Assembly: GCF_900473935.1 (NCBI RefSeq)
Contig: NZ_UCNN01000009.1
Span: forward strand, 62,001 to 126,000
Direction of reading: 5' to 3'
DNA: 64,000 bases
From: Synechococcus sp. UW105
Lineage (GTDB): Bacteria; Cyanobacteriota; Cyanobacteriia; PCC-6307; Cyanobiaceae
This document shows positions 2,704-29,002 of the stretch, one piece after another; position 1 is the stretch's first letter; each line of letters opens with the position of its first letter. The notes under the pieces were generated by a model. That model worked only from the letters and a program-made list of their open reading frames with translations, ran no database searches and was not told the origin of the DNA. The position numbers and the translations under genes are program-made.

Positions 2704-4254
2704 TTAATCCAAAGCGGTTTCAATCACATTCATGGCCCGTAGATAGGCAGGGGGTTGGCCAAGATCGTCTCCCTCGTCGAGGGCCAAATCATCACGGATC
2801 GCCTTGCGTGCGTTATCGGCGATCACCGCGTTGACGATGAGATCCATCGCCTCCGGCTGCTGCAAACTCTGCAATGCCTCTGCATAACGTCGGCTGTGGG
2901 TCGGACGCACAGACTCCTGGCAATACGTGGAGAGTTCTCGACTGTCGGTCATCACGGATAGAGCGACATCCTTCGTGGAAGGTTTGCCGTAGATCGCCAT
3001 ATAGAGCAAGTTGACCATCGAAGCGTCATGCACAGGGATGGAGTACTTGCGCACGATCTGAGGCCAATAACGCAACGCCTTTAAACCTTCGAGGCCTCCT
3101 TTACTGAGCCCCTCCTCCTCGCACCAGCCCTCCAGCTCCTCCATCGAAGCAGGACAACGCTGAAGCTCGCGCATCCGATCGGCAAGCACCTGTCCAGCCT
3201 GGAAGTTGCGTGTAGGTCGACCGGAAACCGGCAACATCATGCTGCCGCGCACATCGGCAACCATCGCCGTGAGTTGGGCGAAGGTATGGTCCCGAACCTT
3301 CTCCATATCCCCACCACGCACCAAGGCCGCCTCAATACGTTGCACCCCATAGCCGAGCTCTGTCAGAGGGAAGGGCTGACGGTTGTAAAGCCGCTGACGA
3401 TCACGGCGCGCCATCGAGACCGTTGCCGCTTGGTCAAGGCACTGCTCGAGCAACAGGGTGAGGAGAGTCGGTAAGACCCCAGGGTTCTCCTGGTGATAGG
3501 TGTAGCCAAAGCCAGCAAACACCGAAGACATATTCTTCGCAGCCTTGATGTATTGCCCCTCAACGTTGTGCACGCCAGGGGAAACCTGGATGTTCGGTGA
3601 CAACCGATCGAGCATGCGTGCGCCAAGCAGCGCCGTGAGCGCGTTGGGATGGCAAAAATTTGCCGTGAAGCTGTCGAGCGGATTGCGTAGGGCACCGTGC
3701 CGATGGAATCCAGAAAAGAAGGCGAGATTGGGCTCTCGTTCACAGAGCACGTAGGACTCGTTCTGAATGTGATCGTGACTGAAGGATCCGGCCAGACAGG
3801 CCAGCACAACATTTTCGCGGCCGAGCTCCTGTCGCAACCTGCAGGCCTCCTGCAGGTCTTCCTCAATGTGGTTGCTGTTGGCAGCCAACACCACCAGTTC
3901 ACACTCCCGGATCAGATCACTGAGGGTGTTGGGCACCCTGCCGCCCGCGACGGCATGGCTGGCCATCCGCTCCATCGCATCGACGTGATCTAAATCCATC
4001 CCATCCAGCGCGCTCGCTGGAAAGGCCCCGAACAGGGCGCGACCTGGGCGTGGCGCCAGCATCAGACTATTTTCTGACGCCTGCTGCATCGCGCAGTTGT
4101 AGGCCAGTGAAGCGGGGTATAAACCAACGCTGTACAGACCGACCTTGCCTCGCTCAAGATCAAGGATGCGTTGCTTGATCAGATCGGCATCCAGGCTGCG
4201 AGGGAAGAAAGCATTGCTGCGAAGGCCATTTTCAAGCGTCATCCGTCCGGTCAA
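2704..4254 (-). CDS. GpsA-like NAD-dependent dehydrogenase family protein (516 aa)
   Basis: A 516-residue soluble protein. A Rossmann-like stretch (ECELVVLAANSNHIEEDL) and a following region with NVEGQYIKAAKNMSSVFAGFGY recall the domain order of 6-phosphogluconate/glycerol-3-phosphate dehydrogenase proteins. Cyanobacterial homologues are usually annotated as NAD-dependent glycerol-3-phosphate dehydrogenase C-terminal family. It is longer than a typical GpsA of about 330 residues and lacks an obvious N-terminal GxGxxG, so the substrate is uncertain. Its start is only 44 bp from the start codon of the duplicated GST fragment, so before the element inserted it was probably divergently paired with the GST gene. 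Confidence 0.55.
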   Translation of the reverse strand: MTGRMTLENGLRSNAFFPRSLDADLIKQRILDLERGKVGLYSVGLYPASLAYNCAMQQASENSLMLAPRPGRALFGAFPASALDGMDLDHVDAMERMASHAVAGGRVPNTLSDLIRECELVVLAANSNHIEEDLQEACRLRQELGRENVVLACLAGSFSHDHIQNESYVLCEREPNLAFFSGFHRHGALRNPLDSFTANFCHPNALTALLGARMLDRLSPNIQVSPGVHNVEGQYIKAAKNMSSVFAGFGYTYHQENPGVLPTLLTLLLEQCLDQAATVSMARRDRQRLYNRQPFPLTELGYGVQRIEAALVRGGDMEKVRDHTFAQLTAMVADVRGSMMLPVSGRPTRNFQAGQVLADRMRELQRCPASMEELEGWCEEEGLSKGGLEGLKALRYWPQIVRKYSIPVHDASMVNLLYMAIYGKPSTKDVALSVMTDSRELSTYCQESVRPTHSRRYAEALQSLQQPEAMDLIVNAVIADNARKAIRDDLALDEGDDLGQPPAYLRAMNVIETALD

Positions 4255-4298
4255 CTCACTGGCGCGATGATCGCCTCACACCCTAATCAGCAAGGCCA

Positions 4299-4358
4299 AT
4301 GACTCTCACCCTTTACGGCGGTCAGCGCACCAGAGCATCGATGCTGCGCTGGTGTTAG
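4299..4358 (+). pseudogene. Orphan 5' end of GST gene (left remnant)
   Basis: ATG plus 18 codons read MTLTLYGGQRTRASMLRWC and then stop at TAG (4356-4358). The first 14 residues after the start match the intact GST gene at 12783. The upstream 44 bp is GC-rich chromosomal sequence, so this is most simply the original gene start, cut off from its body by the inserted element. Confidence 0.85.
4308..4353. repeat. attL: left copy of GST-derived direct repeat
   Basis: Positions 4308-4344 are identical over 37 bp to 12792-12828. One mismatch (T4345 versus C12829) follows, then 8 more identical bases. The repeat ends abruptly on both sides of this block, as expected for the core of a site-specific recombination site. 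Confidence 0.85.
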
Positions 4359-4785
4359 GAGCAACCCAGTCATAGCAATGGTTTAAAGCGGATAATTGCG
4401 CTTGACATTTGCTTGTTCATCACTCTTACGAACAAGCAGCCTTTACTTGCTTGTCTTCGACACTTAACAACAAGGAGGGCTCATGGAACCAGCAAACCTG
4501 ACCAAATAGCGATGTTCTCCTCTGTGTCCTATAGAAACACCGAAGAATGAGACAATCAATAGGTTTATTGCTTGTCGACTTGCTTGTCTGCGCCTGAACA
4601 ACATCCGCTAGTACAAGGCCGCTGCAGCGGACAGATCGAGCTGGTCTACTACAGACCGCTCAAGAGGCACAATGAAGAGTAATAGTGTCAACAGCCACCG
4701 CAATGGAAATCAGAACACCAGACATAGAAGTCAAACCGGCTACAGGCAGCGCGACAGTGTCAGCAAAAACTACTAAAGGGACAAA
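4359..4785. other. Left-end non-coding zone of the element
   Basis: No convincing gene. It holds four TGCTTGT(C/T) repeats, an inverted repeat TGCTTGTTC/GAACAAGCA (4410-4418 and 4430-4438), and a strong Shine-Dalgarno (AAGGAGG, 4472-4478) before an 8-codon ORF at 4483-4509. That ORF could be a leader peptide or chance. Confidence 0.5.
4410..4588 (+). promoter_or_regulatory. Left cluster of TGCTTGTC repeats, possible integrase arm sites
   Basis: TGCTTGTT at 4410-4417 and TGCTTGTC at 4448-4455, 4569-4576 and 4581-4588. The last two start 12 bp apart. The same octamer recurs twice, in the same orientation, just inside the right end (12724-12742). Repeats clustered near both ends of an element with a tyrosine recombinase are typical of arm-type binding sites; this is inference. 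Confidence 0.45.
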
Positions 4786-5121
4786 ATGAAGAGATCTTTA
4801 CTACTAGTAACCGGCATTAGTTTAATCAGTTACTCGATACTTCCATCGCTTGCCATGGAGCGATCCGTGGATCAATTTAGCGAAGAACAGAAATATGCTT
4901 TGGAACTTGGTTTTAATTTTGGTGTATTGAAAACAATATGCGGCATGTTTGAACTAGGAGTGATATCTGAAAAAGAAGTAAAAGATTTCGAAATTGGCTA
5001 TAGCGCCAGCATTAAAGAAAGAGAAAAAGGTGCTTCCTTAGATGGAGCGATGAGGGGTTATGAAATGGCCATAAGACCTTATCCAAATTGTCCTCTTCCT
5101 AGAAGAATCCACCAACAATAG
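4786..5121 (+). CDS. Small exported protein, paralogue of the one at 10524
   Basis: A 111-residue protein with an N-terminal signal peptide (MKRSLLLVTGISLISYSILPSLA). The mature part contains the pattern YALELGFNFGVLKTICGMFE, then VISEKEV, and a late proline-cysteine (YPNC). The same order (G-x-x-Y/F-G-x-L, C, ISE, P-x-C) occurs in the protein at 10524 in this element, so the two are probably distant paralogues. Two cysteines could form one disulfide. ATG is preceded by GGGACAAA, a weak ribosome site. Its TAG stop lies inside the first copy of a 19-bp direct repeat. I do not recognise a function. Confidence 0.65.
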   Translation: MKRSLLLVTGISLISYSILPSLAMERSVDQFSEEQKYALELGFNFGVLKTICGMFELGVISEKEVKDFEIGYSASIKEREKGASLDGAMRGYEMAIRPYPNCPLPRRIHQQ

Positions 5122-5131
5122 GTTCGAGTTC
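5113..5131. repeat. 19-bp direct repeat, copy 1
   Basis: CAACAATAGGTTCGAGTTC, identical to 5507-5525. It overlaps the stop of the upstream exported-protein gene. The two copies exactly bracket the minus-strand membrane-protein gene. Confidence 0.8.
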
Positions 5132-5466
5132 TATAGGAAACCGTGCATTTGGACATTTTGTACATTTGCACCAAACCGCCACCATTGCGACAGAGGCAAT
5201 ACAAGGTACACAAGACAAATGATGCAGGCAGTCGAAATCGCCGTTCCCCCAAAAGCACAGACACGACGTTTTGTTTTTTTAAAGATACCTATAATTCCAA
5301 GAACAAGTGCGATAAGCTCAAGGCTTAGGCCAACACAAAATATCATCAAGGCAAGCATAACAACGCCATATGATGAAAGGAATACTAAAAGGAAGATGAG
5401 CGGAATTGGAATGAACGAAAGAACTAAAGACCAGATCCCAGCAGTAGATTCGCCTGATCTTTCCAC
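5131..5466 (-). CDS. Small membrane protein (111 aa, about three TM segments)
   Basis: After a short polar start the sequence has hydrophobic stretches at about residues 12-32 (SLVLSFIPIPLIFLLVFLSS), 34-60 and 70-92, separated by a basic loop (FKKTKRR). The size and repeated VLGIIGIF-type segment resemble DUF4190-like small membrane proteins, but I cannot assign the family. The gene is enclosed by two identical 19-bp repeats and is opposite in strand to its left neighbour, which suggests it arrived as a cassette. Confidence 0.5.
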   Translation of the reverse strand: MERSGESTAGIWSLVLSFIPIPLIFLLVFLSSYGVVMLALMIFCVGLSLELIALVLGIIGIFKKTKRRVCAFGGTAISTACIICLVYLVLPLSQWWRFGANVQNVQMHGFL

Positions 5467-5506
5467 TAGCGTTCGAGCTGATTGAACTTACTATGACATG
5501 AATGAG

Positions 5507-5525
5507 CAACAATAGGTTCGAGTTC
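5507..5525. repeat. 19-bp direct repeat, copy 2
   Basis: Identical to 5113-5131. The GGTTCGAGTTC part resembles a tRNA T-arm 3' end, but no tRNA can be folded around either copy. Confidence 0.8.
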
Positions 5526-5547
5526 CCAACGAAGTAGGAAGCTGCAG

Positions 5548-5581
5548 TCATACCAACGGTTCTCAGCGGTGGTTGGTATGA
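5548..5581. repeat. Perfect 10-bp inverted repeat, 14-nt loop
   Basis: TCATACCAAC (5548-5557) and GTTGGTATGA (5572-5581) are perfect complements. The left arm with TCTCAGCG in the loop is echoed at 8359 (GTCATACCAA, then TCTCAGCG), and the arm alone at 7792. It lies downstream of no plus-strand gene, so it could be a binding site or transcript end on the minus strand. Confidence 0.6.
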
Positions 5582-5758
5582 AATAAAAAATTGGTTGGTA
5601 TTGAAGTCCTAAAACCTGTGCTGGAGCACCTAGTAAAGCGAGTTTAGCCGATCTATCTGGACTAACAAGCCAGCTAGAGAGGCACCCTATGGGGTAAATC
5701 CTAGGTCCTACTATATACGTATAGAGCTTCAGACAATTACATTATTTTTTTTGGGATT

Positions 5759-6088
5759 TTAGGACGGACACTTTCGTGCTTCTGTGTACTCGTCATCCCA
5801 AGTCCAAGCCATCCATCCCATTCGCCTCGCTTCCTGCATTCGATAGTCTCTGCCAGTCCGTAGACGTTGCATAGGACCATATACGTATGGATTGGCTTTC
5901 AGTCCGAACTGTTGCCACCACCCATCGACATAGAAGTGTGGTTGACACGATGAACAAGATCGCTCAAGTGCCTTAGAGACAGTCTTGGTATCGATACTCG
6001 CCTTGACTTGTGTTTCCTTACCGCAGTTATCACAAGTGATGATTGTGGTAGTTCTGTTGTCTACTTTAATTTGCTTAGCCGTTTTCAT
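5759..6088 (-). CDS. Zinc-ribbon protein of unknown function (109 aa)
   Basis: Two CxxC pairs, CDNCGKE near residue 19 and CSSCQ near residue 45, form a likely zinc ribbon. The rest is rich in Trp, Tyr and Arg (for example DGWWQQFGLKANPYVYGP), suggesting a nucleic-acid contact surface; that is inference. The ATG start (minus strand, 6088) follows a spacer without a clear Shine-Dalgarno. Base composition fits the AT-rich element. No family recognised. Confidence 0.6.
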   Translation of the reverse strand: MKTAKQIKVDNRTTTIITCDNCGKETQVKASIDTKTVSKALERSCSSCQPHFYVDGWWQQFGLKANPYVYGPMQRLRTGRDYRMQEARRMGWMAWTWDDEYTEARKCPS

Positions 6089-6145
6089 TATTATTTGAAG
6101 GGTGTAGTTTTAACCACATCACTTAGGACGTGGAAAACTCACCGA

Positions 6146-6220
6146 ATGTGAACTGTCGGAATCGAACCGACACAAAGATCACCAGATGAACACTGTTCCT
6201 ATCCACTAGGACACCGCCGC
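6146..6220 (-). pseudogene. tRNA-like remnant with intact D and T arms
   Basis: Read on the minus strand, a D arm (TCCT/AGGA stem) and a perfect T arm (GTCGG, loop TTCGATT, CCGAC) sit at tRNA spacing. The acceptor strands (GCGGCGG and AGTTCAC) cannot pair and the anticodon arm is imperfect. It is therefore a chimeric or decayed tRNA rather than a working one. Confidence 0.45.
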
Positions 6221-6318
6221 TCAAAAAGAGCTGGCTTTTTTAATGACATGATGAGTAGTTAAAACTTGATCCACCCTTCAAGTTCTATACCAATGGGTTC
6301 ATCAATTCCATTGGCCAA

Positions 6319-6369
6319 TACAACCAACAGGAATTGCACCTGCATTGAATCACTAAGAGGTTGTTGTCA
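6319..6369 (-). pseudogene. Possible second tRNA fragment
   Basis: Minus strand: ACAACAA at the 5' side can pair with most of TTGGTTGT at the 3' side around a CAGG/CCTG T-arm-like hairpin, but an anticodon arm is absent and the total is only about 50 nt. Weak; chance is possible. Confidence 0.2.
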
Positions 6370-6412
6370 ATATTCAAAAATGTAGCTATGGATAAAAAAA
6401 TACAAAAGACTC

Positions 6413-6688
6413 ATGTCCGAAGAGCAACTCAAGGCATTCATCGCCAAAGTCAAAGCCGATACTTCACTGCAGGAACAGCTCAAAGCAGAAGGAGCTGACC
6501 CTGTTGCTATTGCCAAAGCTGCAGGCTTCTCGATTACCACAGAAGACTTAAAAGAGGATCGCCAAACCCTGTCTGATGATGAGCTGGAAGGTGTGGCTGG
6601 GGGAGGGTCAGGATACTGGGATTGTGGGAAGGAGGAGAGGAGAGGAAGGAGGAAGGGATTTACTGTTACTGAAGCGAACTGCCTCTGA
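6413..6688 (+). CDS. Prochlorosin-type (ProcA) lanthipeptide precursor, Nif11 leader
   Basis: A 91-residue peptide precursor. Residues 1-64 are a Nif11-type leader starting MSEEQLKAFIAKVKADTSLQ and ending in the double-glycine protease site EGVAGG. The core of 27 residues (65-91) has Ser2, Cys7, Thr20, Thr22 and Cys26 (core numbering), enough for two (methyl)lanthionine rings. In known prochlorosin systems one promiscuous LanM enzyme (ProcM) dehydrates Ser/Thr and cyclises onto Cys, and a C39-peptidase transporter removes the leader. No such enzyme is in this window. The core centre is unusually basic (EERRGRRKG) and is encoded by a 33-nt all-purine run. A terminator follows at 6714. Confidence 0.88.
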   Translation: MSEEQLKAFIAKVKADTSLQEQLKAEGADPVAIAKAAGFSITTEDLKEDRQTLSDDELEGVAGGGSGYWDCGKEERRGRRKGFTVTEANCL

Positions 6689-6713
6689 CAGGACATACCA
6701 CAGCCTACACACT

Positions 6714-6743
6714 CAAAGCCCTTGCATTAGCAGGGGCTTTTTA
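6714..6743 (+). terminator. Rho-independent terminator of the first ProcA gene
   Basis: AAAGCCC, loop, GGGGCTTTTTA: a GC-rich hairpin with a T tract on the plus strand, starting 26 nt after the precursor stop codon. Confidence 0.75.
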
Positions 6744-6920
6744 TTTCATCAACGAGTTCCATATTTGCTTAAAACGGCATCCGATACCTGGCACCATTGA
6801 CTTGCAAAAGTTACCTTGATGTCTTATTTAGCAGGCAACAACCACCAATAGTTTTTCGTATTGATCACAAATTTGCCTCTAAATCCTTTTGCCCTAAAAC
6901 TACTTATATTCCTAACTTAA

Positions 6921-7439
6921 TCACCACAGCAACAGACGTGAATCACCATCACGGATGCCATTCGTCTTGCGAAATCTCACCGCAACCTGATGCCACTCCT
7001 CTGGGATTTGATTGAGCCGAACATCAAAAGCAAAAGGGAGTTGCTGTTGACCTGGCGAGACACGCTTTCCCTTGCTTCTACTGCTCCCAACCAATCGCTT
7101 CAGCATCCGTGAGCCCCAATGGCACTTCGCTCCTCCCTTGGCGTGATGGCGATACTTCTGGCGACACCGCCCTGGCTCGCCAAACAGGGTTTCGTTCTGC
7201 GGTGAGCGGCGGCGATAACCGTGGCAGGCAGGTTCATCCTGCGAATACGCCTCCGTCTCCACAATCACGCCCCACAGCAAGCTGCCATCCGCTTGGCGTT
7301 TCACCAACCTGCAGCCCACCAAGTCAGGTCCCACCACCTCTGCAGGACGGCAGAAGAAGGATTGAGGAAGAGCGGGGAAATCTTTGGTGATGCGCTGGGT
7401 GGCTATGGGCGTGGCTGGAGCGACAACCTTCTTCACCAA
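6921..7439 (-). pseudogene. Truncated 3-methyladenine DNA glycosylase (AAG/MPG) fused to unrelated tail
   Basis: Residues about 25-90 ([39 protein letters not shown]) are a clear AAG/MPG-family N-terminal half, including the Glu of VETEAY that activates water in this family. After GEPGR the expected FYVYxxYG catalytic-fold continuation is missing. The frame instead runs into about 80 residues without resemblance ([18 protein letters not shown] onward). A normal family member is about 200 residues with a different second half. I read this as a broken gene stranded between the two precursor genes; a GTG at 7439 is the apparent start. A genuine domain fusion is less likely. Confidence 0.6.
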
Positions 7440-7495
7440 AGTCTGACAATGCTGCTTGGAGGAGCGAAAATTGAATTATCTACATTCTTTGCCTT

Positions 7496-7765
7496 ATGTC
7501 AGAAGAACAACTCAAAGCGTTCATCGCCAAAGTTCAAGCCGATACTTCACTGCAGGAACAGCTCAAAGCAGAAGGAGCTGATGTTGTAGCTATTGCAAAG
7601 GATGCAGGCTTCTCCATCACCACAGAAGATCTAAACTCTCATCGCCAAAATCTGACTGATGCTGAGCTGGAAGGTGTAGCTGGTGGTGGAACTAAGGTGG
7701 GAGAATGCCCAACTGGAGCTTTAACCGTTCACTGCACATGTGCTAGCATGGATCCATGTAATTGA
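7496..7765 (+). CDS. Second prochlorosin-type (ProcA) lanthipeptide precursor
   Basis: An 89-residue precursor with a 64-residue Nif11 leader nearly identical to the one at 6413 (MSEEQLKAFIAKVQADTSLQ to EGVAGG). The core of 25 residues is completely different, with Cys at core positions 7, 16, 18 and 24 and Thr/Ser at 2, 9, 13, 17 and 20, so up to four thioether rings are conceivable. A conserved leader with a hypervariable core is the hallmark of prochlorosins. It lies on the same strand as the first precursor, about 0.8 kb downstream, separated by the broken glycosylase on the opposite strand. The ATG has no strong Shine-Dalgarno. Confidence 0.88.
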   Translation: MSEEQLKAFIAKVQADTSLQEQLKAEGADVVAIAKDAGFSITTEDLNSHRQNLTDAELEGVAGGGTKVGECPTGALTVHCTCASMDPCN

Positions 7766-7920
7766 AGCTCTATAAAGTTGGAGTATCTGTAGTCATACCA
7801 ATCTCTTTGATCTCTGGATGTAATGAATTGAGATTGATACCTATGCTCCCTATAAAGCTGTTTCCAGCTAATAGACATTGTATTTAACACATTGAATGAC
7901 TTGTATTGATGACTGTGAAG

Positions 7921-8068
7921 GACGGTAATTTAAGTATGTCCATTCACACGTTCACTTCGCTCACTTAGGACATAAGTAAATAGAAAGATTGTGTCTTGTT
8001 AGAGACAGTAATTTAAAGATCTCCATTCACACGTTCGCTTCGCTCACTTAGGAGATAAGTAAATAGAA
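7921..8068. repeat. Pair of 65-bp direct repeats, each a hairpin
   Basis: Copy A 7921-7985 and copy B 8004-8068 differ at six positions. Each can fold as ATTTA/TAAAT, a small internal loop, then ATGTCC/GGACAT in A or ATCTCC/GGAGAT in B. One G-C pair has become C-G through changes on both sides. The loop is largely conserved (CATTCACACGTTC, then CTTCGCTCACTTA). A GC-rich CTCGCTCGGCTTCGCC stretch follows at about 8083-8100. Confidence 0.75.
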
Positions 8069-8137
8069 GTTGGTGTCTGTTCACTCGCTCGGCTTCGCCT
8101 CGCTCGCTCACCATAGTAGTAATCAAACATGTGTCTT

Positions 8138-8308
8138 TTAGGTTCGCAGAACCAAGTCTTCAAGACCTGTTAGCAATGAAATCCTTGTCTTGAGTAAATC
8201 ATTAAACCTATTGATTTCATTGGTGTTGTTAAGCAAGTAATCACAGGCTTCAATCTTGAACAGTAAAGACTCAGCCACGCGTTCTTTTGCTTTATCGAGT
8301 GTACTCAT
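8138..8308 (-). CDS. Small helical protein of 56 aa
   Basis: Minus-strand ORF starting MSTLDKAKERVAESLLFKIE and ending DLVLRT. An AGGAA ribosome site lies 4 nt before the ATG (8306-8308). The sequence is charged, Leu-rich and heptad-like, so probably a short helical or coiled-coil protein. It lies between the hairpin repeats and the HTH gene on the same strand, so it could be co-transcribed with the latter (start 8798). No family recognised. Confidence 0.5.
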   Translation of the reverse strand: MSTLDKAKERVAESLLFKIEACDYLLNNTNEINRFNDLLKTRISLLTGLEDLVLRT

Positions 8309-8399
8309 TTGTTCCTGTTCTTATCCTCATAGAGTAGGAGGGTACAAGAATAATTCCTGTCATACCAAAGAGTCTCAGCGAGAGTTGTGCTCTGAATGG

Positions 8400-8798
8400 C
8401 TAAAAATATTTTTTAGCTAGGTCAGATGGAGTAAGCGGCATGAATGCCATTGCATTTCTAACATTCTCTATCTCCGAGGGGTGCACTACTCTGTAAATCC
8501 GATGCTTACTTCCTTTACTTGAGTCAAGCAAGCCTATACACTGAATAAAGCAATGATCTAGCAAAAGGTTAATGCATTTGAGCATTTTACTTTTACCCAT
8601 CCCAAGTGTATCAGCGATTGCTTTATGGGACCAATTTGTAGTTCCACCACAATCACGTCTTTGAGCAAAGCTTCTTTTGTCATAGCGCTGGTCCTGATAA
8701 GCCGATTGATACAAGAGGCTGTAAACCGCAACCGATGCATAGCCTAGTTTGGCCACCTCTGTAATAGGAGGTACGGTGTCTTTCAAAATTACTGCCAT
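8400..8798 (-). CDS. Winged-HTH protein, possible replication or copy-control protein
   Basis: From ATG at 8798 the product is 132 residues; an in-frame GTG at 8834 would add 12. Residues about 60-95 (WSHKAIADTLGMGKSKMLKC then INLLLDHCFIQ) form a helix-turn-helix like those of MarR/Rep-type winged helices that bind DNA. Immediately upstream of the start is an array of about eight 26-29-bp direct repeats (8884-9109), the layout of an iteron-controlled initiator or of an autoregulated DNA-binding protein. The protein is short for a Rep initiator, so a repressor or copy-control role is equally possible. It lies inside the integrative element. Confidence 0.55.
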   Translation of the reverse strand: MAVILKDTVPPITEVAKLGYASVAVYSLLYQSAYQDQRYDKRSFAQRRDCGGTTNWSHKAIADTLGMGKSKMLKCINLLLDHCFIQCIGLLDSSKGSKHRIYRVVHPSEIENVRNAMAFMPLTPSDLAKKYF

Positions 8799-8883
8799 TA
8801 ATTTGTATATATACTTGTGTCCCAGATAGAACACTTTTGGGTACGTACTTCCACGGGTGTTTAAGTCTTTTCCTTGACTCTCG

Positions 8884-9109
8884 CGCTTCTCTCTTTAAAC
8901 ACTGCCGATCGCTTCCCCCTGTATACACTGCCTGTTACCGCTTCTCTCTGTATACACTGCGGACCGCTTCCCCCTGTATAAGGTGCGTGTTACCGCTTCC
9001 CCATGTATACACTGCGGGTTACCGCTTCTCCCTGTATAGGGTGCCTGTTAACGCTTCTCCCTGTATACGGTGCCTGTTACCGCTTCTCTCTGTATACGGT
9101 GCGGGTTAC
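8884..9109. repeat. Tandem direct-repeat array, about 8 units of 26-29 bp (iteron-like)
   Basis: Units start at 8884, 8910, 8939, 8965, 8994, 9023, 9052 and 9081; a degenerate ninth begins at 9110. The consensus is CGCTTC(T/C)CCCTGTATAC, then (A/G)(C/G)TGCCTGTTAC or close variants. The centre TGTATACA is palindromic in the best copies. Two units are 26 bp, six... the remainder 29 bp. A CRISPR is unlikely because there are no unique spacers. The ORF reading through the array has no coding character. Confidence 0.85.
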
Positions 9110-9269
9110 CGCTATCTGAACACATTGCAGACTGGGGCTCCCTGTATAGATGACATGTCAATGAGACCCGCCTTCGGCTTAGTGTGAAAGCGTCCAGGTC
9201 ATTATTCTTGATTGCATCTCTTTCTCGAGATTACCTACTATGTAGTTCTCTTGTCTGCTCTCGCGATCA

Positions 9270-9656
9270 ATGAAAGCAATCAGCTTGCTTCTGACTCCTG
9301 GGCTCGCTGCTTTATTGGTGGTCCCGCTTGAAGCGGTCGCTGGTGAGACTCAAGCTCTGCAATGTGAATCGGTCAGGCTTGAAATGGATGCCTCACTGGT
9401 TCAAAGCTCTAGTGATACAGAGCTAGAAGATGAGACAGAGATTTCTATTTTCATTGAAGATGGGACCAAATTTGGTCCGTATAAAATGAAAGCAGCTATG
9501 CAGGGTGAGATGGGTGGAACTCGAATGACAGCCTGGAAATACAAAGCACCAAACCCAAAGGGTAAGAATTTAACTCTCCGCTTGATGACAACGAGCAAAG
9601 ACTCAGAACCCGACCTTTATGTGAATGGCACGAGGTCTTCTTGCAAGCCTATTTGA
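9270..9656 (+). CDS. Small exported protein of unknown function (128 aa)
   Basis: An N-terminal signal peptide (MKAISLLLTPGLAALLVVPL, with cleavage likely after VAG or AVA) precedes an acidic beta-rich body. One Cys near residue 36 and one near the end (SSCKPI) may pair. The pattern of charged strands ending in YVNGT suggests a small secreted beta-sandwich; that is inference. It reads away from the tandem-repeat array, whose right edge could hold its promoter. Confidence 0.6.
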   Translation: MKAISLLLTPGLAALLVVPLEAVAGETQALQCESVRLEMDASLVQSSSDTELEDETEISIFIEDGTKFGPYKMKAAMQGEMGGTRMTAWKYKAPNPKGKNLTLRLMTTSKDSEPDLYVNGTRSSCKPI

Positions 9657-9904
9657 GGCTGCTTGTTTCCTCCTCTTCTTCCTACACGCTTAAAGGGTAA
9701 GCTCCAAAAGATTATTGAAACCGGCGCATAAAAAGAACGCCACCCTAAGCCAATAGCAAAAGGTTCCTCTTTGCACGTTATGTCGCCCTAGAAGGACCTA
9801 AAAAGCCTCTTGCTTTCTCAACCAGGATCCCGAACAGAGGCTGCCAAGACCGCTTGCAGGACCACAGAGCTGTCAGCCAGCTAGTCCCACCCTCACCCTT
9901 TCTT

Positions 9905-10348
9905 TCACACTAATCCTTTCCTCTCAATAGGAGGGTAAGAGTCAATCCAACCTTCGATATAAACATCATCCTCATTTGTTTCACTCAACAGTTCAAGCGG
10001 GAAATCGTTATACCAAGCGACGAACTCTTCACTCCCGATGTCACCATGTGGAGTTAGCTGGGATTGATTCATTGAGTCACCATCTTTGGAGAAACCACGA
10101 CAATGCCTGATGTAGATTTCATGAGTATATTTAGATTGAAGTTCTTTTAAATCCTCCTCGTCAGAACCCATAAATATTCGACTGGCAAACCATTCACCAT
10201 CTAATGGGTCTAGGCATTCTTTCAGCTTGTATTTATCAACCATCTTTTGGGATACATAGATTCTCCCATAATGGTCCTCATCCCAGTAATAGGTTCCGCA
10301 TTCGCGGCGTTCCCATCCATCGGCACTGTCTACAATTTCGTTAGTCAT
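9905..10348 (-). CDS. Acidic protein of unknown function (about 147 aa)
   Basis: A Trp/Tyr/Asp-rich soluble protein (YYWDEDHYGRIY, FVAWYNDFPLELL, ending PPIERKGLV). The frame extends upstream to a TTG at 10405 (166 residues). I prefer the internal ATG at 10348, because the extension would begin next to the tRNA-Thr remnant and no strong ribosome site marks the TTG. No family recognised; acidic composition and lack of a signal peptide suggest a cytoplasmic protein. Confidence 0.5.
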   Translation of the reverse strand: MTNEIVDSADGWERRECGTYYWDEDHYGRIYVSQKMVDKYKLKECLDPLDGEWFASRIFMGSDEEDLKELQSKYTHEIYIRHCRGFSKDGDSMNQSQLTPHGDIGSEEFVAWYNDFPLELLSETNEDDVYIEGWIDSYPPIERKGLV

Positions 10349-10423
10349 CTCTCTAATACTGAAAGCTTCCCAGCTTAAATCTACCACCTTCCTTAAGAGC
10401 AGCAAACCAATCTAGAGATACTA

Positions 10424-10489
10424 CTTTATATCGGAAACGGACAACCTTCGCTTTACAAAAGCACTGCTCTACCTTTGAGCTAATACGGC
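10424..10489 (-). pseudogene. Decayed tRNA-Thr(TGT)
   Basis: Minus strand: acceptor GCCGTAT, D arm GCTC/GAGC, and an anticodon arm with loop TTTGTAA (anticodon TGT, Thr) are well formed. The T arm has lost several bases (GTCCGTTTCCGA) and the 3' acceptor strand does not pair. The truncation affects the 3' half, the part usually used as attachment site by tRNA-targeting elements. Confidence 0.65.
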
Positions 10490-10523
10490 ATTTGGAGTAT
10501 GCTGGAATTAATTTATTGTTAGC

Positions 10524-10850
10524 ATGATGCGTTGGACTCCACTCTTAGGACTTGTCTTCCTTGCTTCAGCAACACCAGCTTGGGCTGAAAAACCTTTCGC
10601 TGAGAGGGCTGCTGATTATCAATTTAACGCTGGATTGGTCTACGGAACTCTTGGAGAACTCTGCAATCTCAGAAACCTCAAAGAGATAAGTGAAGAGCAG
10701 TTCAATAGTCGAGCCACGACTTATATGAAGCAATGGAATGGTGTTCAATATGCTATTGACGGGTTGACTGCCATAAGGGAAGCCAAACCAAAATGCTATG
10801 AACTAATTAGAACAAGAGTTTTTAGAGTAGAGTCAGGTGCAAGTGATTAG
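10524..10850 (+). CDS. Small exported protein, paralogue of the one at 4786
   Basis: A 108-residue protein with a signal peptide ending in PAWA. The mature region (YQFNAGLVYGTLGELCNLRN, KEISEEQFNS, ending with PKCYELI) shares spacing and residues with the 4786 protein. Two cysteines are conserved in position. It starts just beyond the decayed tRNA-Thr and is divergent from the acidic-protein gene. Small exported proteins of this plan recur in picocyanobacteria, but I know no function. Confidence 0.65.
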   Translation: MMRWTPLLGLVFLASATPAWAEKPFAERAADYQFNAGLVYGTLGELCNLRNLKEISEEQFNSRATTYMKQWNGVQYAIDGLTAIREAKPKCYELIRTRVFRVESGASD

Positions 10851-10886
10851 AGGCCTCTAGAGACAAGCAGCCAGCACAGTAGATAG

Positions 10887-11105
10887 CTACATCCACTTCA
10901 TCATTGATTCCAGAATGTAATTTTTAGTCTCGGTTAGATTCGCTGACGGATTCAGCTTTGATTTATTCGTTTGGTTTAGATGTGGGAATTTCTTTCGGTG
11001 TTGCTCTAATCCGTAAGCAACGACAGCATCCTTATCCTCTTTGCTCGGATTGTTTCCTGTTGCAGCCCGCTTGATCATGTTGTCGCGGGTATTCGTGTTT
11101 TCCAT
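10887..11105 (-). CDS. Small basic protein of unknown function (72 aa)
   Basis: Begins MENTNTRDNMIKRAATGNNP and ends ILESMMKWM. It is polar and rich in Asn, Lys and Glu, without membrane segments. It is convergent with the exported-protein gene at 10524 and lies downstream of the integrase on the same strand (gap 265 bp), which would suit an excision or accessory factor, though no HTH is apparent. Confidence 0.4.
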   Translation of the reverse strand: MENTNTRDNMIKRAATGNNPSKEDKDAVVAYGLEQHRKKFPHLNQTNKSKLNPSANLTETKNYILESMMKWM

Positions 11106-11370
11106 AATGATTGTGAATGTAATTTAATGTTTGCGTTGGTGTCCTCTGAGAGCCACTTGTGAGCGGCTGTGAGGCCCGATGAGGGAGGGTGAGGGGTGTG
11201 TAGCTTCTTCTTACCTCTTCGGCGTCAGAAAGCCATTCAGGCGTTATTTGCAGAGGTTTTTATGCTGTCATGTTGTTGCTAATAGAAGAGACTTGAAAAC
11301 TAGACGGAGTAATTGTGTTTGACGTTGGTCTGATCTGAAGTGATATTTGCAAATAAGTAAAGGTGACGAG

Positions 11371-12693
11371 TCAGATGTCTGCAATCTCAATCACCTCAAC
11401 CCGTGGCCGCTTCTTCCTGCCTACTGGAATTGCTTGTACTTCTTCAGCACGATTAAGAACATCATGCCTGTCATAATGCTTTTGAATGACATCAACACTA
11501 TTGCCACACAGACGAGCGACAAGATACACATCTAGACCATCTGTAATGCAGTCCTCAATGAAGGTTGAACGCAGAGAGTACAGCGTATAATTACGCTCAC
11601 TGAACCTGTTCCCATCTAATTTACTTTTTACAGCACCTCTAACCTCCTCCCATAAGCTATCGAGATAACGATAGACATACGGCCTTTCAAGAAGTTGTGC
11701 TGGGTTGCCAAACAAAAGCGTTTCTGGATAGGTGATGAGCCTCGGGTAATAAGCATCAAAGTATGAGCGCTGATACTTCATAAACTCAAGAAGATGCTCA
11801 GCAGCATTACTACGACACAACACATCTCTTTTCTTACCAGTTTTAGATTTTCGGATGTGAATCTTGAGCTTGTAATCATCTACCCAATCTTTCAGTGTTT
11901 CACTCCAGCGTTTTGGATTGGTGATTTCAATATCCTTGCGACGCACAGCCAGCAACTCAGAGGGACGACACCCACTGTTTTTAAGGATGTGCACCAAACC
12001 ATAGAACATACGACGCGTGTACTCACCTTTCTTATTATTTTTACCAGTGACAAAGTGATTCCTAAGATGGTTATTAATCACTCTATAATCATGAGGCGTG
12101 ATTGCAGGGTTAGCATCCAGGTCTTCCTCATTAACGCTGACCCTTGGGATAAAGAGTCTACCCATCGCGATCTCATTACTCAAGTATCCACGAGGCACCA
12201 AAAAGTGTCGGCAGAATACACCAATATCCTTGAGTTCTGATTTACGTGTATTCTTCCTGACGTCCATTCGGAATACTGGATAGTCTTCCCAAGTAGTTGG
12301 ATCTATCTGATCTGGATACTCAATATGTTTAACCGCAAGATACGCCAACATCCATTTCAATGAAATTCTCCTCCTCTCGTGTGCTCGCTCGTTCTTCAAT
12401 CCAGCAGAAACTCGCTGTGCTTCCCACTTAGTAAACTCAAGGACTAGTTCACCTATTGTTATATGCTTCAATTTTTTCGCATTGACACGCTGCGGTTTTT
12501 GCTCGAACGAAACAAGTGCTTTGTAGAAATTTGCTAGCGCCTCTTCTTGTGTTGTTGCACCATCAATTTTCTTAATTCGGTATCGCCTTTCGTGCTTTAC
12601 CCATTTGCGCACATACCAACCTTCCTTACCTGTCTGGTAGCTGAAGACGCTGATGCCTTGTTCGACAGTGATGGACGACTTGATTGCTGGCAT
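11371..12693 (-). CDS. Tyrosine recombinase / integrase of the element
   Basis: 440 residues. An N-terminal DNA-binding part (about 1-190) is followed by a catalytic domain with Arg243 (GCRPSELL), a lysine of the beta hairpin (RKSKTGKK, about 281-288), Arg375 in LYSLRST and the nucleophile Tyr407 (IQKHYDR). The usual His of HxxR is Tyr372, and the later His/Trp position reads GNS (397-399); such substitutions are tolerated in some family members. The start codon is about 100 bp from attR, the classic place for an integrase. It is expected to recombine the 37-bp core shared by attL and attR (inference). Confidence 0.9.
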   Translation of the reverse strand: MPAIKSSITVEQGISVFSYQTGKEGWYVRKWVKHERRYRIKKIDGATTQEEALANFYKALVSFEQKPQRVNAKKLKHITIGELVLEFTKWEAQRVSAGLKNERAHERRRISLKWMLAYLAVKHIEYPDQIDPTTWEDYPVFRMDVRKNTRKSELKDIGVFCRHFLVPRGYLSNEIAMGRLFIPRVSVNEEDLDANPAITPHDYRVINNHLRNHFVTGKNNKKGEYTRRMFYGLVHILKNSGCRPSELLAVRRKDIEITNPKRWSETLKDWVDDYKLKIHIRKSKTGKKRDVLCRSNAAEHLLEFMKYQRSYFDAYYPRLITYPETLLFGNPAQLLERPYVYRYLDSLWEEVRGAVKSKLDGNRFSERNYTLYSLRSTFIEDCITDGLDVYLVARLCGNSVDVIQKHYDRHDVLNRAEEVQAIPVGRKKRPRVEVIEIADI

Positions 12694-12723
12694 AGGCTCG
12701 CAGCATGGAAAAGACCCAAGTAC

Positions 12724-12742
12724 TGCTTGTCATGTGCTTGTC
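12724..12742 (+). promoter_or_regulatory. Right pair of TGCTTGTC repeats, possible integrase arm sites
   Basis: TGCTTGTC at 12724-12731 and 12735-12742, start-to-start spacing 11 bp, about one helical turn. They lie between the integrase start and attR and have the same orientation as the left cluster. Confidence 0.45.
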
Positions 12743-12782
12743 TATCCATTCTACCTTACTTTTATTGGAGGCCAGAAATTCA

Positions 12783-13370
12783 ATGACACTAACCCTTTAC
12801 GGCGGTCAGCGCACCAGAGCATCGATGCCGCGCTGGTACATGGAGGAAAAAGAGATCGCCTACGAGCTGGTGGAACTGGATCTGAAGGCCAATCAACACC
12901 GCCAACCGGACTTTCTGGAGATCAATCCTTTCGGCAAGCTGCCAGCCCTTGCTGATGACAGCCTTTGCGACAACGAAGGGAAACCGCTGAAACTGTTCGA
13001 AAGCGGTGCAATCCTTCTGCATCTGGCGGACCGTCACAGTCAGGACATCCAATCCGATGCCGAGCGAGCCCTCACCAGCCAATGGCTGCTGTTCGCCAAT
13101 GCAACCTTGGCCATTGCCTTGTTCGTGCCCAGCAATCGGGAGCGCGAATTCCCGCGCCTGATGGATGCACTGAATCAGAGGCTTGACCCAGCCCAACCAC
13201 TGGTGGGTCGCCAGTGGGGTGCCGCCGACTGTGCCGTGCAGGCCTACCTGGCCTACCTGCCGATGTTCTTCCCTGAGCTCAACCTCAGCCCATACCCGAC
13301 CATCCAGACCCTGATCGCCTCAGTGCAGCAGAGGCCCGCCTACCAGAAAGCGATGGGGCTACAAAGCTGA
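12783..13370 (+). CDS. Glutathione S-transferase family protein
   Basis: 195 residues from ATG 12783, chosen because the product then begins MTLTLYGGQRTRAS, the first strand and catalytic loop of a GST thioredoxin-like domain. The same start is duplicated at 4299. GKLPALAD (cis-proline) and ESGAILLHLAD (glutathione contact) follow, then an all-helical C-terminal domain. An upstream in-frame ATG at 12705 would add element-derived sequence and is rejected. A GGAGG ribosome site precedes the ATG by 11 nt and belongs to the element. The gene is therefore intact but now has an element-supplied promoter, leader and first codons. The substrate is unknown. Confidence 0.85.
   Translation: MTLTLYGGQRTRASMPRWYMEEKEIAYELVELDLKANQHRQPDFLEINPFGKLPALADDSLCDNEGKPLKLFESGAILLHLADRHSQDIQSDAERALTSQWLLFANATLAIALFVPSNREREFPRLMDALNQRLDPAQPLVGRQWGAADCAVQAYLAYLPMFFPELNLSPYPTIQTLIASVQQRPAYQKAMGLQS
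12792..12837. repeat. attR: right copy of GST-derived direct repeat
   Basis: 12792-12828 is identical to 4308-4344. It covers GST codons 4-15, including the catalytic loop. Upstream of the core the two copies differ only at the third bases of codons 2 and 3 (ACA CTA here, ACT CTC at the left). Confidence 0.85.
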
Positions 13371-13693
13371 GCGCGTTCGCAGGCAAGAGCAGATAGGCCA
13401 CTTTGCCTATAGCACACCTCGTAACGAGGCTCTATGACGTGATGACCCGCCAGCCGCGAACGCGTCCATCGCCAACTCATTCACCACGTCTATGCACTGC
13501 TCGACATCCTTTAGCCGTACGTCGGCCTCTAACCCTCAAGCCTGGTCATCATCGCGATCAGGACGAAGCTCCCAAGCCTTTGCAAAGCTTGTACCTGCTG
13601 GTTCATTGCATTACTTGATGGTCGAACAAGAGGTGAGGTTGCTCCAACGCTGCAGCAACGTGGCCAGCTGAAGCTGCCTCGTGCAGACAGAGA
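13371..13693. other. Intergenic, no gene seen
   Basis: A weak hairpin ATAGGC/GCCTAT near 13393-13410 follows the GST stop but lacks a T tract. Nothing else supported. Confidence 0.4.
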
Positions 13694-20059: not shown

Positions 20060-22168
20060 ATGAGTACCAGTGCAAGCGGCAATGCAACACTTCAGCGTCT
20101 TGCCCCCTATCTGGTGGCCAGGCCCCGCCGCGGTGTCGTCGGCAACAGTCCCCAGGCAAGACGACTGCGGGAAGCGCTCCATGAGGCCTCGACGGATCGC
20201 AATCACCAAGCAGTGTTGCTGGTGGGTGAACCGGGGCTTGAAAAAGACAACCTCGCGGCACTGATTCACTTTGGATCCAGCCAAAGGCATCAACTGATGC
20301 TGCGCGTGGACGGGGCTCAGATGCGCAGTGATGGCAGCGAGCTCTTCGGGCGGGAAGGGGACAATGACCAGATTCCGCTGCTGGAGCTGGTCGGCGAAGG
20401 CAGTCTTCTGATCGACAACTTCGAACAACTCGAAGCGCCCGTTCGCCAAAGGATTGTGGAGATCGCCGCCACTGGCAGATGGCAATCTCCTGGGTTGGAG
20501 CCCAAGCCGCAAACGTTTCGCGGACGGCTGCTGATCACCGCCGAAAGCGCCATCCCTGAGTTGTCACCGCTGACGCAGCTGATCCGAGTGCCGCCACTTC
20601 GGGTGCGACGTCAAGATCTCGGCGATTGGTTGCGTTATGGCATCCGCCAACAGAGTTTGCGCCTGGGCTGGAAGAAGCCACCCAAGCTGCCCATGGCAGT
20701 GGTGAAACAACTGCAGAACTATGACTTCCCGAACAATCTGCGCGAGCTGGAAGCATTGATCGAGCGAGCACTCCAACAAGTGCGTCGCCAAGGCAGCAGT
20801 CCAAAAGCGTTACCAGAGGACGTGTTCTGGACGTCACCACGGCAACAGCGTTCACGGTTTGACCTGTGGGCCTGGAAACCAAAGTTGCGCAACTGGATGC
20901 GTGCACCTCAGCTCTGGAATCTCCTGCTCTTTGGAATCGTGAGCTGGGTGTTTGTTCTGATCAATCTTTGGTTGTGGTTTGGCCCCCAAGACAGGGCTCA
21001 CAACGGAGCACTGAATTTGTTTTGGGCCTGGTGGTGGCCACTGATTCTGCTCAGCTTTCCTGTTGTGGGCAGGTTGTGGTGTTCGTTTTGCCCGTTCATG
21101 GTTTGGGGTGAACTTGCCCAGAAGCTGGCTCGGGGATTGGGCTGGACGCCATCCCCATGGCCACGAGGTGATCACGATGCCTGGGGCTCAAGATGGCTGG
21201 CAGGTGGATTTGCCCTCATCCTGCTCTGGGAAAGCCTGTGCGATTTGCCTCAGAACGGGCAACTCAGCAGTTGTCTGTTGCTGCTAATCACAGCAGGAGC
21301 CGTGAGCGGATCGATACGGTTTGAAAAACGATTCTGGTGCCGTTATCTGTGTCCAATCGGTGGCATGAACGGACTGTTCGCCAAATTGTCCATGCTGGAA
21401 CTTCGAGCCCAAGCCGGAGTCTGCAGCGGCAACTGCAGCAGTTATGCCTGTTTCAAGGGAGGGCCGGCTGAAGGAGAGGGACTGCAGACATCAGGTTGCC
21501 CGCTTGGAACCCATCCAGCCCATCTGCGCGACAACCGAAATTGTGTCTTGTGCATGACCTGCGCCCAGGCCTGTCCGCATCGGTCCGTGCGCCTGGCGAT
21601 CCGGCCACCTGCTGCCGACCTTCAACGCGACATGGTGATTCCCAACGGTGAACCTGGCCTGGTCCTGGTGCTAACCGGGAGTATCTGCTTACAGCAATGG
21701 CAGAAATTATGGGGCTGGACAGGGCTAACGCCAAGCTCGATCAGCAGTGGGCCCCTGCTACCGCGAATAGCGATCGCATGCCTCAGCCTTGCCCTACCAG
21801 CAACGGTTTATCTCTTGGCCAGGTTGATCGTCAATCAACAACGACTGGAACACACGCTCTACGGTTTCCTACCCGTGCTCTGGGCGCTGCTCCTAGCCTC
21901 CCATCTACCGATAGGAATGCGTGAGGCAGGGATGGTGCTGCCTGTGAGCATGGAGGGCTTAGAGGGCTTGCCTCAATTTGGGTTGCCAAGCTGGCAAGCC
22001 GACCCCCATGTGATCCGGTTCTGCCAGAGTGCCGTGGTCACAGTGGGAGGTCTCGGCAGTGTTGTTGTGCTGAGACGAATGCTGTGCAATCAACGCAAAG
22101 CTTGGTTGGCTGCCTGCATGGTGTTAATCAGTGTGGCGGGCTGTGGACGATGGCTGGTTGGGAGCTGA
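20060..22168 (+). CDS. Fusion of degenerate NtrC-like AAA domain and membrane polyferredoxin
   Basis: 702 residues. Residues about 25-260 follow the sigma-54 activator fold: ELFGRE, a Walker A-like GEPGLEKDN, a Walker B-like GSLLIDNFEQL, and the LRELEALIERAL end helix. The Walker A lacks its third glycine, the Walker B acid is replaced and the GAFTGA loop is absent, so ATP-driven sigma-54 remodelling is unlikely; cyanobacteria also lack sigma-54. Residues about 280-700 form a NapH/NosR/RdxA-like part with several TM helices, CSFCP, CRYLCP and a ferredoxin cluster CVLCMTCAQACP, suggesting membrane electron transfer coupled to a sensing or assembly domain (inference). Confidence 0.75.
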   Translation: MSTSASGNATLQRLAPYLVARPRRGVVGNSPQARRLREALHEASTDRNHQAVLLVGEPGLEKDNLAALIHFGSSQRHQLMLRVDGAQMRSDGSELFGREGDNDQIPLLELVGEGSLLIDNFEQLEAPVRQRIVEIAATGRWQSPGLEPKPQTFRGRLLITAESAIPELSPLTQLIRVPPLRVRRQDLGDWLRYGIRQQSLRLGWKKPPKLPMAVVKQLQNYDFPNNLRELEALIERALQQVRRQGSSPKALPEDVFWTSPRQQRSRFDLWAWKPKLRNWMRAPQLWNLLLFGIVSWVFVLINLWLWFGPQDRAHNGALNLFWAWWWPLILLSFPVVGRLWCSFCPFMVWGELAQKLARGLGWTPSPWPRGDHDAWGSRWLAGGFALILLWESLCDLPQNGQLSSCLLLLITAGAVSGSIRFEKRFWCRYLCPIGGMNGLFAKLSMLELRAQAGVCSGNCSSYACFKGGPAEGEGLQTSGCPLGTHPAHLRDNRNCVLCMTCAQACPHRSVRLAIRPPAADLQRDMVIPNGEPGLVLVLTGSICLQQWQKLWGWTGLTPSSISSGPLLPRIAIACLSLALPATVYLLARLIVNQQRLEHTLYGFLPVLWALLLASHLPIGMREAGMVLPVSMEGLEGLPQFGLPSWQADPHVIRFCQSAVVTVGGLGSVVVLRRMLCNQRKAWLAACMVLISVAGCGRWLVGS

Positions 22169-22206
22169 AACAGCACCAACACGGCAGCCCGCTGAAAAGC
22201 AAATGC

Positions 22207-22437
22207 TCAAGCCAAGGGATGATGATGAAGCTGCAGCAGCACACGCGCCGCCAGCCCACGGGAAACGCTGCGATGAGCAAGCAACGAGCAAACCCAGTCG
22301 AACAATTGAGGATTAGAAGGATCCTTGGCCAATTGATCTCTTAGCAGGAGCAGTTGCTGCAAGTTCTCACAACCACGCAAGGCATCAATGAGCGTGTCTT
22401 CAGACACTGGAGCCTTGGGTGCAGAGGCAACAGTCAT
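22207..22437 (-). CDS. Conserved small protein (76 aa)
   Basis: Start at ATG 22437 (MTVASAPKAPVSEDTLIDAL), which leaves a compact helical protein (CENLQQLLLLRDQLAKDPSN, ending LLQLHHHPLA). An upstream extension of 37 residues reads as untranslated. It is convergent with the AAA-polyferredoxin gene. No function known to me. Confidence 0.5.
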   Translation of the reverse strand: MTVASAPKAPVSEDTLIDALRGCENLQQLLLLRDQLAKDPSNPQLFDWVCSLLAHRSVSRGLAARVLLQLHHHPLA

Positions 22438-22955: not shown

Positions 22956-23279
22956 TCAAAGAGAGATGCGAATCAAAGGCGAATGAACACGAATGAAGGG
23001 CCGAGCTGGGTGTCGATAACGACGATAACGAGGTGAAACGATGGGATTGCCAGGAGGGAAACTGGGCGCCAAACGAACAGAGCCAGGCCGATAACCAGGA
23101 GCAGCCGGCAGAAGGCGGGGGCTCAGATCACCAAGAATCACACAACGTTGTAGGCGGTACGAAAAGCGATGGAAGCGTCCGCACCCATCAGCAGCCAAAG
23201 CAGGGGCACAGAAGGCAAAACATGCACTGATACCGAAAAAGGCAAGAACATTGAACCGACTAGTGGTCTTGAAAGACAT
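22956..23279 (-). CDS. Exported GCG-motif small protein (107 aa)
   Basis: The signal peptide ending CAPALA is followed at once by ADGCGRFHRFSYRLQRCV, a two-cysteine GCG...C motif seen in small exported cyanobacterial proteins, then a Pro/Arg-rich basic tail with no defined fold. The start is ATG 23279. The high Arg/Tyr/Pro content of the tail suggests binding to an acidic polymer; that is inference. Flanked by long non-coding stretches. Confidence 0.55.
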   Translation of the reverse strand: MSFKTTSRFNVLAFFGISACFAFCAPALAADGCGRFHRFSYRLQRCVILGDLSPRLLPAAPGYRPGSVRLAPSFPPGNPIVSPRYRRYRHPARPFIRVHSPLIRISL

Positions 23280-29000: not shown

Positions 29001-29002
29001 AA

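Follow-up and report, generated by a model that had tools for sequence, protein, structure and literature searches.

The 64-kb stretch of Synechococcus sp. UW105 DNA analyzed here (the window; all positions are counted from its first letter) contains a glutathione S-transferase (GST) gene whose first codons occur twice, on either side of approximately 8.45 kb of DNA (4345..12791) that we interpret as an integrative element. The two copies lie on the plus strand and are identical at 37 of 37 bp (the core; left copy 4308..4344, right copy 12792..12828, by pairwise comparison), followed by a T/C mismatch (4345/12829) and eight further identical bases, and re-alignment returned exactly the coordinates given in a preliminary description of the locus. 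Repeat finding in the window yielded a family of 68 nt at 88% identity around both copies, and the left copy with its surroundings, searched against the genome of the window, matched in two places, both being these copies. By simple expectation, chance alone does not produce an exact repeat of 37 bp in a sequence of 64 kb. Coding homology of the copies begins before the core, at the ATG codons at 4299 and 12783, and the bases preceding the core, ATGACtCTc on the left and ATGACaCTa on the right, differ at two third codon positions, both synonymous. Based on the layout of the family, we take the core to encode the last part of the first strand together with the active-site loop of GSTs.

The right copy opens the intact GST gene (12783..13370, plus strand; Pfam GST_N 6.7e-17), which is the only match to that GST in the genome at E ≤ 1e-30 and of which, from the alignment, at least the first three codons are element-derived (the attR junction). 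An element-borne, Shine-Dalgarno-like GGAGG (12767..12771, plus strand) lies 11 nt before its ATG. At the left junction (attL; 4299..4355, plus strand) the native GST start (ATGACTCTC...), which is host-derived, runs into element DNA and leaves a remnant open reading frame (ORF) of 19 codons that reads MTLTLYGGQRTRASMLRWC-stop. The limits of the element are set by empty-site alignment and by composition, the G+C content being 0.445 in the element and 0.594 and 0.585 in the flanks. As the preliminary description had stated, the right end of the element carries a tyrosine recombinase gene (11371..12693, minus strand, 440 amino acids (aa)), the frame of which starts 99 bp from the right core. ARAGORN placed no tRNA at the element borders, the nearest in the window being at 30882, Rfam at gathering thresholds gave nothing across 4200-13500, and promoter and terminator scans of both element ends gave nothing.

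The empty site in related genomes

The host gene flanking the element on the left (2704..4254, minus strand) encodes a conserved protein of 516 aa with no Pfam match at E ≤ 0.01, and in genomes where the site is empty it stands head-to-head with the GST gene. A query made of the joined flanks was run on 151 genomes of the family, 69 of which gave any match, and the neighbor and GST proteins were then searched in 60 genomes, 54 from these 69 and six from a search with the winged-helix gene described below, which form a selected set and not a survey (genomes and loci are cited by our G and L numbers). A GST match at E ≤ 1e-30 was present in 57 of the 60 and the 516-aa neighbor at E ≤ 1e-50 in 30. 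Six of these 30 hold the two genes as a tight head-to-head pair whose matches are separated by 48-60 bp: G253, from the genus of the window, at 48 bp, and G089, G112, G162, G147, and G273, all of genus g5, at 55-60 bp. The same two genes are 8.5 kb apart in the genome of the window. Elsewhere the interval is 1802 bp (G061), 544 bp (G101), or 513 bp (G075), while G004, G249, and G216 have the GST in the opposite orientation, 196-510 bp from the neighbor, and in the remaining 17 of the 30 the GST is elsewhere or under the threshold, G123 having a C-terminal GST piece beside the neighbor. In the 1.8-kb interval of G061 (L066) a candidate peptidase/RTX-like gene was recognized by eye only.

The junction DNA itself was read in G253, G147, G112, and G089. 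In G253 the upstream gene, the spacer, and the GST gene form one continuous alignment across the junction at about 74% DNA identity, with a single 1-base gap located in the spacer before the ATG, and the first 60 aa of the GST are the same whether they are read from the joined flanks or from the occupied gene. An empty GST site therefore exists in a congener of the host and, since G253 aligns through the junction and the protein start is the same over 60 residues, the 8.45 kb is an insertion between flanks of host DNA. The preliminary description had predicted that alignment with related genomes would reveal an uninterrupted gene, and this is seen in the congener as well as in the five g5 genomes.

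The comparison also tells the two gene starts apart. The spacer to the left of 4299 and codon 3 of the left copy agree with G253, while the DNA upstream of the right copy and its codon 3 do not. Because only the left spacer aligns with G253, the working GST start is supplied by the element, with the host start left behind as the stub. The element-borne first codons differ from the native ones by synonymous changes only and, because the element carries this spare gene start, the GST protein sequence is preserved. Judging from the sequence, the GST gene is thus reconstituted, and it would now be expressed from signals of the element.

The recombinase and the repeats at the element ends

The recombinase matches phrog_1 (3.9e-18), and its Pfam Phage_integrase match (0.0014) is weak and under the curated cut-off. 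Its predicted structure has a mean predicted local distance difference test score (pLDDT) of 81 and a predicted template modeling score (pTM) of 0.56. In a fold search with this model, 3nkh gave a Z score of 18.5 with a root-mean-square deviation (rmsd) of 4.6 over 203 aligned residues, and full-length lambda Int (1z1b) gave a Z score of 16.9 with an rmsd of 19.6 over 322. The catalytic positions are R243, K284, Y372 (replacing His), R375, N398, and the nucleophile Y407, so that the Arg-Lys-Arg-Tyr set is present in an open frame. By these sequence and model comparisons the protein is a lambda-type tyrosine recombinase, and it would be the enzyme that performed the integration.

Repeats of the type GCTTGTC, resembling arm-type sites and found by motif search on the plus strand, lie at 4449, 4570, and 4582 at the left end (4449..4588) and as a pair at 12725 and 12736 at the right end (12725..12742). 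The five end copies share one strand, close pairs are spaced by 11-12 bp, and elsewhere in 4201-13000 the motif occurs once, at 10862 on the other strand. Each of the five elements examined has its own motif, repeated and similarly arranged at the two ends, the others being TCAAGCA in G009, TTCAAAC in G115, CAAACTT/TACAAAC in G112, and TGTGACTAAA in G162. The best end-motif counts are 6 in the window, 7 in G009, 5 in G115, and 4 each in G112 and G162, and a count of at least 4 was reached by at most 1 of the 500 shuffled versions of each element. Pairs of interior pieces reached it in 17 of 450 for the window, 1 of 426 for G009, 4 of 424 for G115, 12 of 410 for G112, and 7 of 442 for G162, and since interior pairs reach 4 as well, the counts by themselves make a weaker case for G112 and G162. 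The end motifs have the layout of lambda-type arm sites and would be bound by the recombinase.

Related recombinases with placed sites lie at the ends of coding genes

A recombinase match at E ≤ 1e-40 was present in 19 of 400 genomes of the family, that of the window included, with the closest relative, in G009, at 64% identity and the next at ≤ 35%. An alignment search of genome contigs with the C-terminal fragment gave 14 relatives from Prochlorococcus and Synechococcus. No relatives were found in phages, in plasmids, or in viral contigs, where candidates were picked by short peptide patterns that distant relatives may escape. The repeat finder was applied to 27 distinct recombinase loci, leaving out L102, L105, L107, L109, and L110, and sites were assigned to 10 of the 27, in nine cases from a direct repeat and in G009 from empty sites. 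All 10 lie at the ends of coding genes.

Three elements besides that of the window have empty sites in relatives. The element of G009 is at the start codon of an alpha/beta hydrolase gene, which is empty in G092 and G115; its crossover rests on these empty sites because its core is only 7 bp (CGACACA). The first element of G115, at the start of a 113-aa phasin-like gene, has a 16-bp repeat, and seven other genomes were compared: G092 is empty to the base, the sequence is contiguous in G134, G064, and G150, the same order is kept in a loose alignment in G147 and G112, and G009 is not empty. The element of G112 is at the 3' end of cobO with a 44-bp repeat (36/44, the differences being synonymous), and this site is empty in six of the eight other g5 genomes (G147, G249, G216, G004, G061, and G273), with G089 and G162 matching on one side only. 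The second element of G115 (20-bp repeat) is at the start of an 80-aa gene and that of G279 (22-bp repeat) at the 3' end of rpsD. The last four, all of the Prochlorococcus type (L100, L101, L103, and L106), are bounded by a direct repeat at the 5' end of an EVE-domain gene, which is intact in L100 and L101 (PF01878 ~5e-53) and represented by gene starts only in L103 and L106.

The four EVE loci, which are picocyanobacterial single-cell genomes, contain more than two copies of the gene start. The EVE 5' coding motif occurs on the plus strand 4 times in L100, 3 in L101, 5 in L103, 6 in L106, and once each in L104, L105, and L107; it is found once on the minus strand in L109 and is absent from the other six of the 14 loci. 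Shuffled versions of L100, L101, L103, and L106 contain 0.005 motifs per locus. Moreover, 15 of the 19 copies in L100, L101, L103, L104, and L106 have in their preceding 90 bases two 8-base words that match with no more than one mismatch at spacing 11, and 14 of these 15 pairs are positioned 40-46 bases before the 90-base stretch ends; when 1000 random 90-mers were taken from these loci, 205 contained a pair at any spacing from 9 to 13. The pattern suggests that insertions recurred at a single coding gene, and each event would add a gene start and an arm-like pair. We found no paper on serial insertion at the EVE gene in the open-license literature.

No site was placed for 17 of the 27 loci, namely G089, G123, G147, G120, G004 (where the recombinase is too close to the contig end), G297, L097, L098 (on the same contig as G207), L099, L104, L108, G216, G156, G206, G186, the second recombinase of G162, and G161, and since these sites were not placed they may be tRNA genes or others. 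L104, on a short contig, has an EVE start upstream and no far repeat. The 3' end of rpsD lies within ~0.5 kb of a recombinase relative in L161 (G216), L166 (G206), L169 (G161), L171 (G089), and L108; no second rpsD copy was detected at these loci, and the reading of L171 is based only on a short motif. With ARAGORN, a tRNA was detected in one of 11 of the 14 Prochlorococcus and Synechococcus loci (all except L102, L104, and L105), ~7 kb from the recombinase, and in two of 11 further stretches, 8-9 kb away in L076 and ~2 kb away in L077. The latter, from G123, has a tRNA-Thr (13114-13185) ~2 kb upstream of the recombinase relative, so that a tRNA site is possible in this genome, in which no site was placed.

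In G162 (L112, 3354-11838) an element with the winged-helix and zinc-ribbon genes described below and with a recombinase of another subfamily (weak DUF6538 match) is found at the 5' end of a class-V aminotransferase gene with a 35-bp repeat (34/35). Similar DNA (89%) is present at the same gene in G112, and a clean empty site for the G162 element was not seen.

Cargo of the element

Two precursors of ribosomally synthesized and post-translationally modified peptides with Nif11-type leaders are encoded on the plus strand (6413..6688, TIGR03798 1.1e-25; 7496..7765, TIGR03798 3.4e-26), and between them on the minus strand lies a fragment of a 3-methyladenine DNA glycosylase gene (6921..7439, covering profile positions 1-64 of 181). 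The only match of the genome to the LanM-type domain PF13575 (3.0e-103) is in a 1077-aa frame on another contig (G000 C2:88306-89472). Since this LanM-type match is on another contig, the precursors of the element may be substrates for an enzyme encoded in the chromosome. In a genome-mining study, integrases and transposases are mentioned as members of prochlorosin clusters (PMC10783134).

A winged-helix DNA-binding protein is encoded at 8400..8834 (minus strand), and matches to its gene occur in 13 of the 400 family genomes. Directly upstream of it is an iteron-like array (8889..9148), mostly of YYYTGTATA every 26 or 29 bp, which contains all seven YYYTGTATA sites of the window. The array and the winged-helix gene are also present in the elements of G112, G162, and G265, in the last of which the repeat finder gave no core, and the array is irregular in G009. 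The remaining features, all on the minus strand, are a zinc-ribbon-like protein of 109 aa (5759..6088; Pfam matches under cut-off) with relatives in the G112 (61%) and G162 (59%) elements, an ORF of 166 aa (9905..10405) to which PHROGs and NCBIfam scans assigned no function, and a 72-aa ORF (10887..11105) with a relative in the G009 element (70% over 37 aa). The PHROGs scan, which covered eight element proteins, gave a family of known function for the integrase only, with no phage structural gene recognized among the eight. No relaxase or transfer genes were recognized among the element proteins scanned in Pfam, PHROGs, and NCBIfam, where not all ORFs were run in all libraries.

Outside the element, a second low-G+C stretch of the window (22001-30000; 0.44-0.54) ends near a tRNA-Pro (30882) and a tRNA-Lys (33056) and is possibly another island.

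A proposed mechanism and its alternatives

We propose with high confidence that the 8.45 kb is an integrative element that was inserted into the start of the GST gene by its own lambda-type tyrosine recombinase. The circular form of the element would bear an attP site that mimics the first GST codons, the GST gene of the host would serve as attB, and the crossover would fall within the 37-bp identical stretch. Integration would leave at attR a full GST frame with the Shine-Dalgarno sequence, the ATG, and at least codons 1-3 of the element, specifying the same amino acids, and would retain at attL the original gene start of the host as the 19-codon stub. Integration at the GST site had been put forward in the preliminary description, and the ends, the recombinase, the composition, and the arm-like repeats all fit a site-specific event.

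Several observations weigh against this interpretation. The occupied site is known from a single genome, and the difference between occupied and empty sites is one between species, none being seen within a species. In the genus of the window, which contributes eight of the 60 genomes, the tight empty pair is seen in G253 only: G101 and G075 have ~0.5 kb between the genes, G123 has only the C-terminal GST piece there, the GST of G265 is located elsewhere, and G141 and G034 have no GST at the threshold. The inverted arms of the core are weak, being equaled by 102 of 5000 shuffles and by 149 of 5000 random pieces of the window, and no excisionase was recognized in the element. The box-II His is replaced by Tyr in nine of 10 aligned recombinases, the tenth being gapped, and the H/W position is Asn in the recombinase of the window and in its 64% relative and His in the eight others; because of the box-II Tyr and this Asn, recombinase activity is not assured. 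Scanning of the new GST start found no sigma-70 consensus, and for this reason we put forward a promoter swap as a suggestion only.

Foreign DNA flanked by two copies of one gene start might also result from a partial tandem duplication of the GST gene into which unrelated DNA was later inserted, the repeat being the scar of the duplication. We consider this highly improbable, as the homology is limited to the first codons and on the left goes no further than codons 18-19, the sequences preceding the two ATGs are unrelated to each other, the recombinase starts ~100 bp from the repeat as it does in related elements at other genes, and the congener is empty. A different question is whether an element that did integrate site-specifically is now a fixed and immobile relic, kept because the GST depends on it. 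The single occupied genome, the truncated glycosylase gene, the lack of a recognized excisionase, and the Asn at a position that is usually His or Trp are in line with this, but the recombinase frame is open, the core and arm-like motifs are present at both ends, and related elements are occupied or empty between species. We therefore regard loss of mobility as rather unlikely, and the integrative element proposed here may still be able to excise.

We are more evenly divided, though leaning slightly against it, on whether the element is a satellite or a mobilizable plasmid-like element that replicates when excised, with the winged-helix protein as initiator and the iteron-like array as origin. 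The array would suit such a role, its repeats preceding the winged-helix gene at intervals of 26 or 29 bp in the window, G112, G162, and G265 and in irregular form in G009. At E ≤ 1, relatives of the winged-helix protein also match phage replication initiation profiles: among 10 aligned members, phrog_391 (O-like) matches eight (best E 7.6e-4), phrog_8102 five (best 1.1e-5), and phrog_678 (O-like) four (best 2.6e-5). However, these matches are weak, the protein of the window itself has no PHROG match even at E 1, and profiles of transcriptional regulators also match some members. In a fold search it is a generic winged helix for which initiator chains are listed but rank no higher than transcription factors, with which they are tied. 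The array may equally be an operator, and the winged-helix gene of G265 has an internal stop.

Relation to known elements and significance

The integrative and conjugative element (ICE) SXT is many times larger than the GST element. Many bacterial islands use coding genes as their sites and rebuild them (PMC12884075), and insertion into the 5' end of dusA furnishes this gene with a new N-terminus and promoter, the same being true of SXT and prfC (PMC8409611). Because the dusA and prfC elements restore 5' coding ends, the mechanism proposed here is already known. The dusA elements, such as IMEVchUSA3, resemble the GST element in having a site-specific integrase, a 5' coding end as target, and an element-supplied N-terminus that keeps the frame open; they differ in their hosts (Vibrio and other proteobacteria), in their size (22.8-37.1 kb in that report), and in being mobilized by IncC plasmids (PMC8409611). 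The N-terminus supplied to dusA is not the same as the native N-terminus (61% over 35 aa, E. coli), whereas that of the GST is identical in protein, and expression after insertion was measured for dusA (PMC8409611). ICE SXT likewise gives a 5' coding end a new promoter and N-terminus but is conjugative (PMC8409611).

Among picocyanobacteria, the tycheposons of Prochlorococcus also have a tyrosine recombinase and cargo, and at 4-200 kb their range has the GST element (8.45 kb) at its low end (PMC10872708, PMC10187409). They are described as bordered by tRNA genes, whereas the GST element is bordered by a coding gene with no tRNA near (PMC10872708, PMC10187409). The integrase family of tRNA-Phe and tRNA-Cys likewise consists of tyrosine recombinases that define islands in Prochlorococcus and Synechococcus, but it is found upstream of two tRNA genes and the GST element is not, a separation that we make from the published description (PMC10187409). 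The contrast with tRNA sites drawn in the preliminary description is consequently valid for this element, with its tRNA-free borders, and does not extend to a claim of rarity, as coding-sequence sites are well known in bacteria (PMC12884075, PMC8409611). A GST attachment site is not reported in the titles and abstract openings of the literature matched, and we did not meet the target gene, the host lineage, or the coding-end pattern with serial accretion in the literature searched.

The essence of our wider proposal, which we favor with some reserve, is that picocyanobacteria contain a lineage of tyrosine recombinases specialized on the ends of protein-coding genes in place of tRNA genes, in which attP carries the matching gene end, host gene starts (possibly with their promoters) or 3' ends are replaced upon insertion, and serial accretion at the EVE gene in Prochlorococcus builds islands. 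If this is true, the starts of GST, alpha/beta hydrolase, phasin-like, and EVE-domain genes would be replaced, as would the 3' ends of cobO and rpsD. The attP and recombinase pair is, in our general judgment, a possible tool for marine Synechococcus. For the biology of these organisms, the coding-end elements point to a second route that searches based on tRNA genes would miss. It would carry small cargo, including genes for prochlorosin-like lanthipeptide precursors whose modifying enzyme is perhaps elsewhere in the chromosome, and would swap the start signals of a host gene at each insertion.

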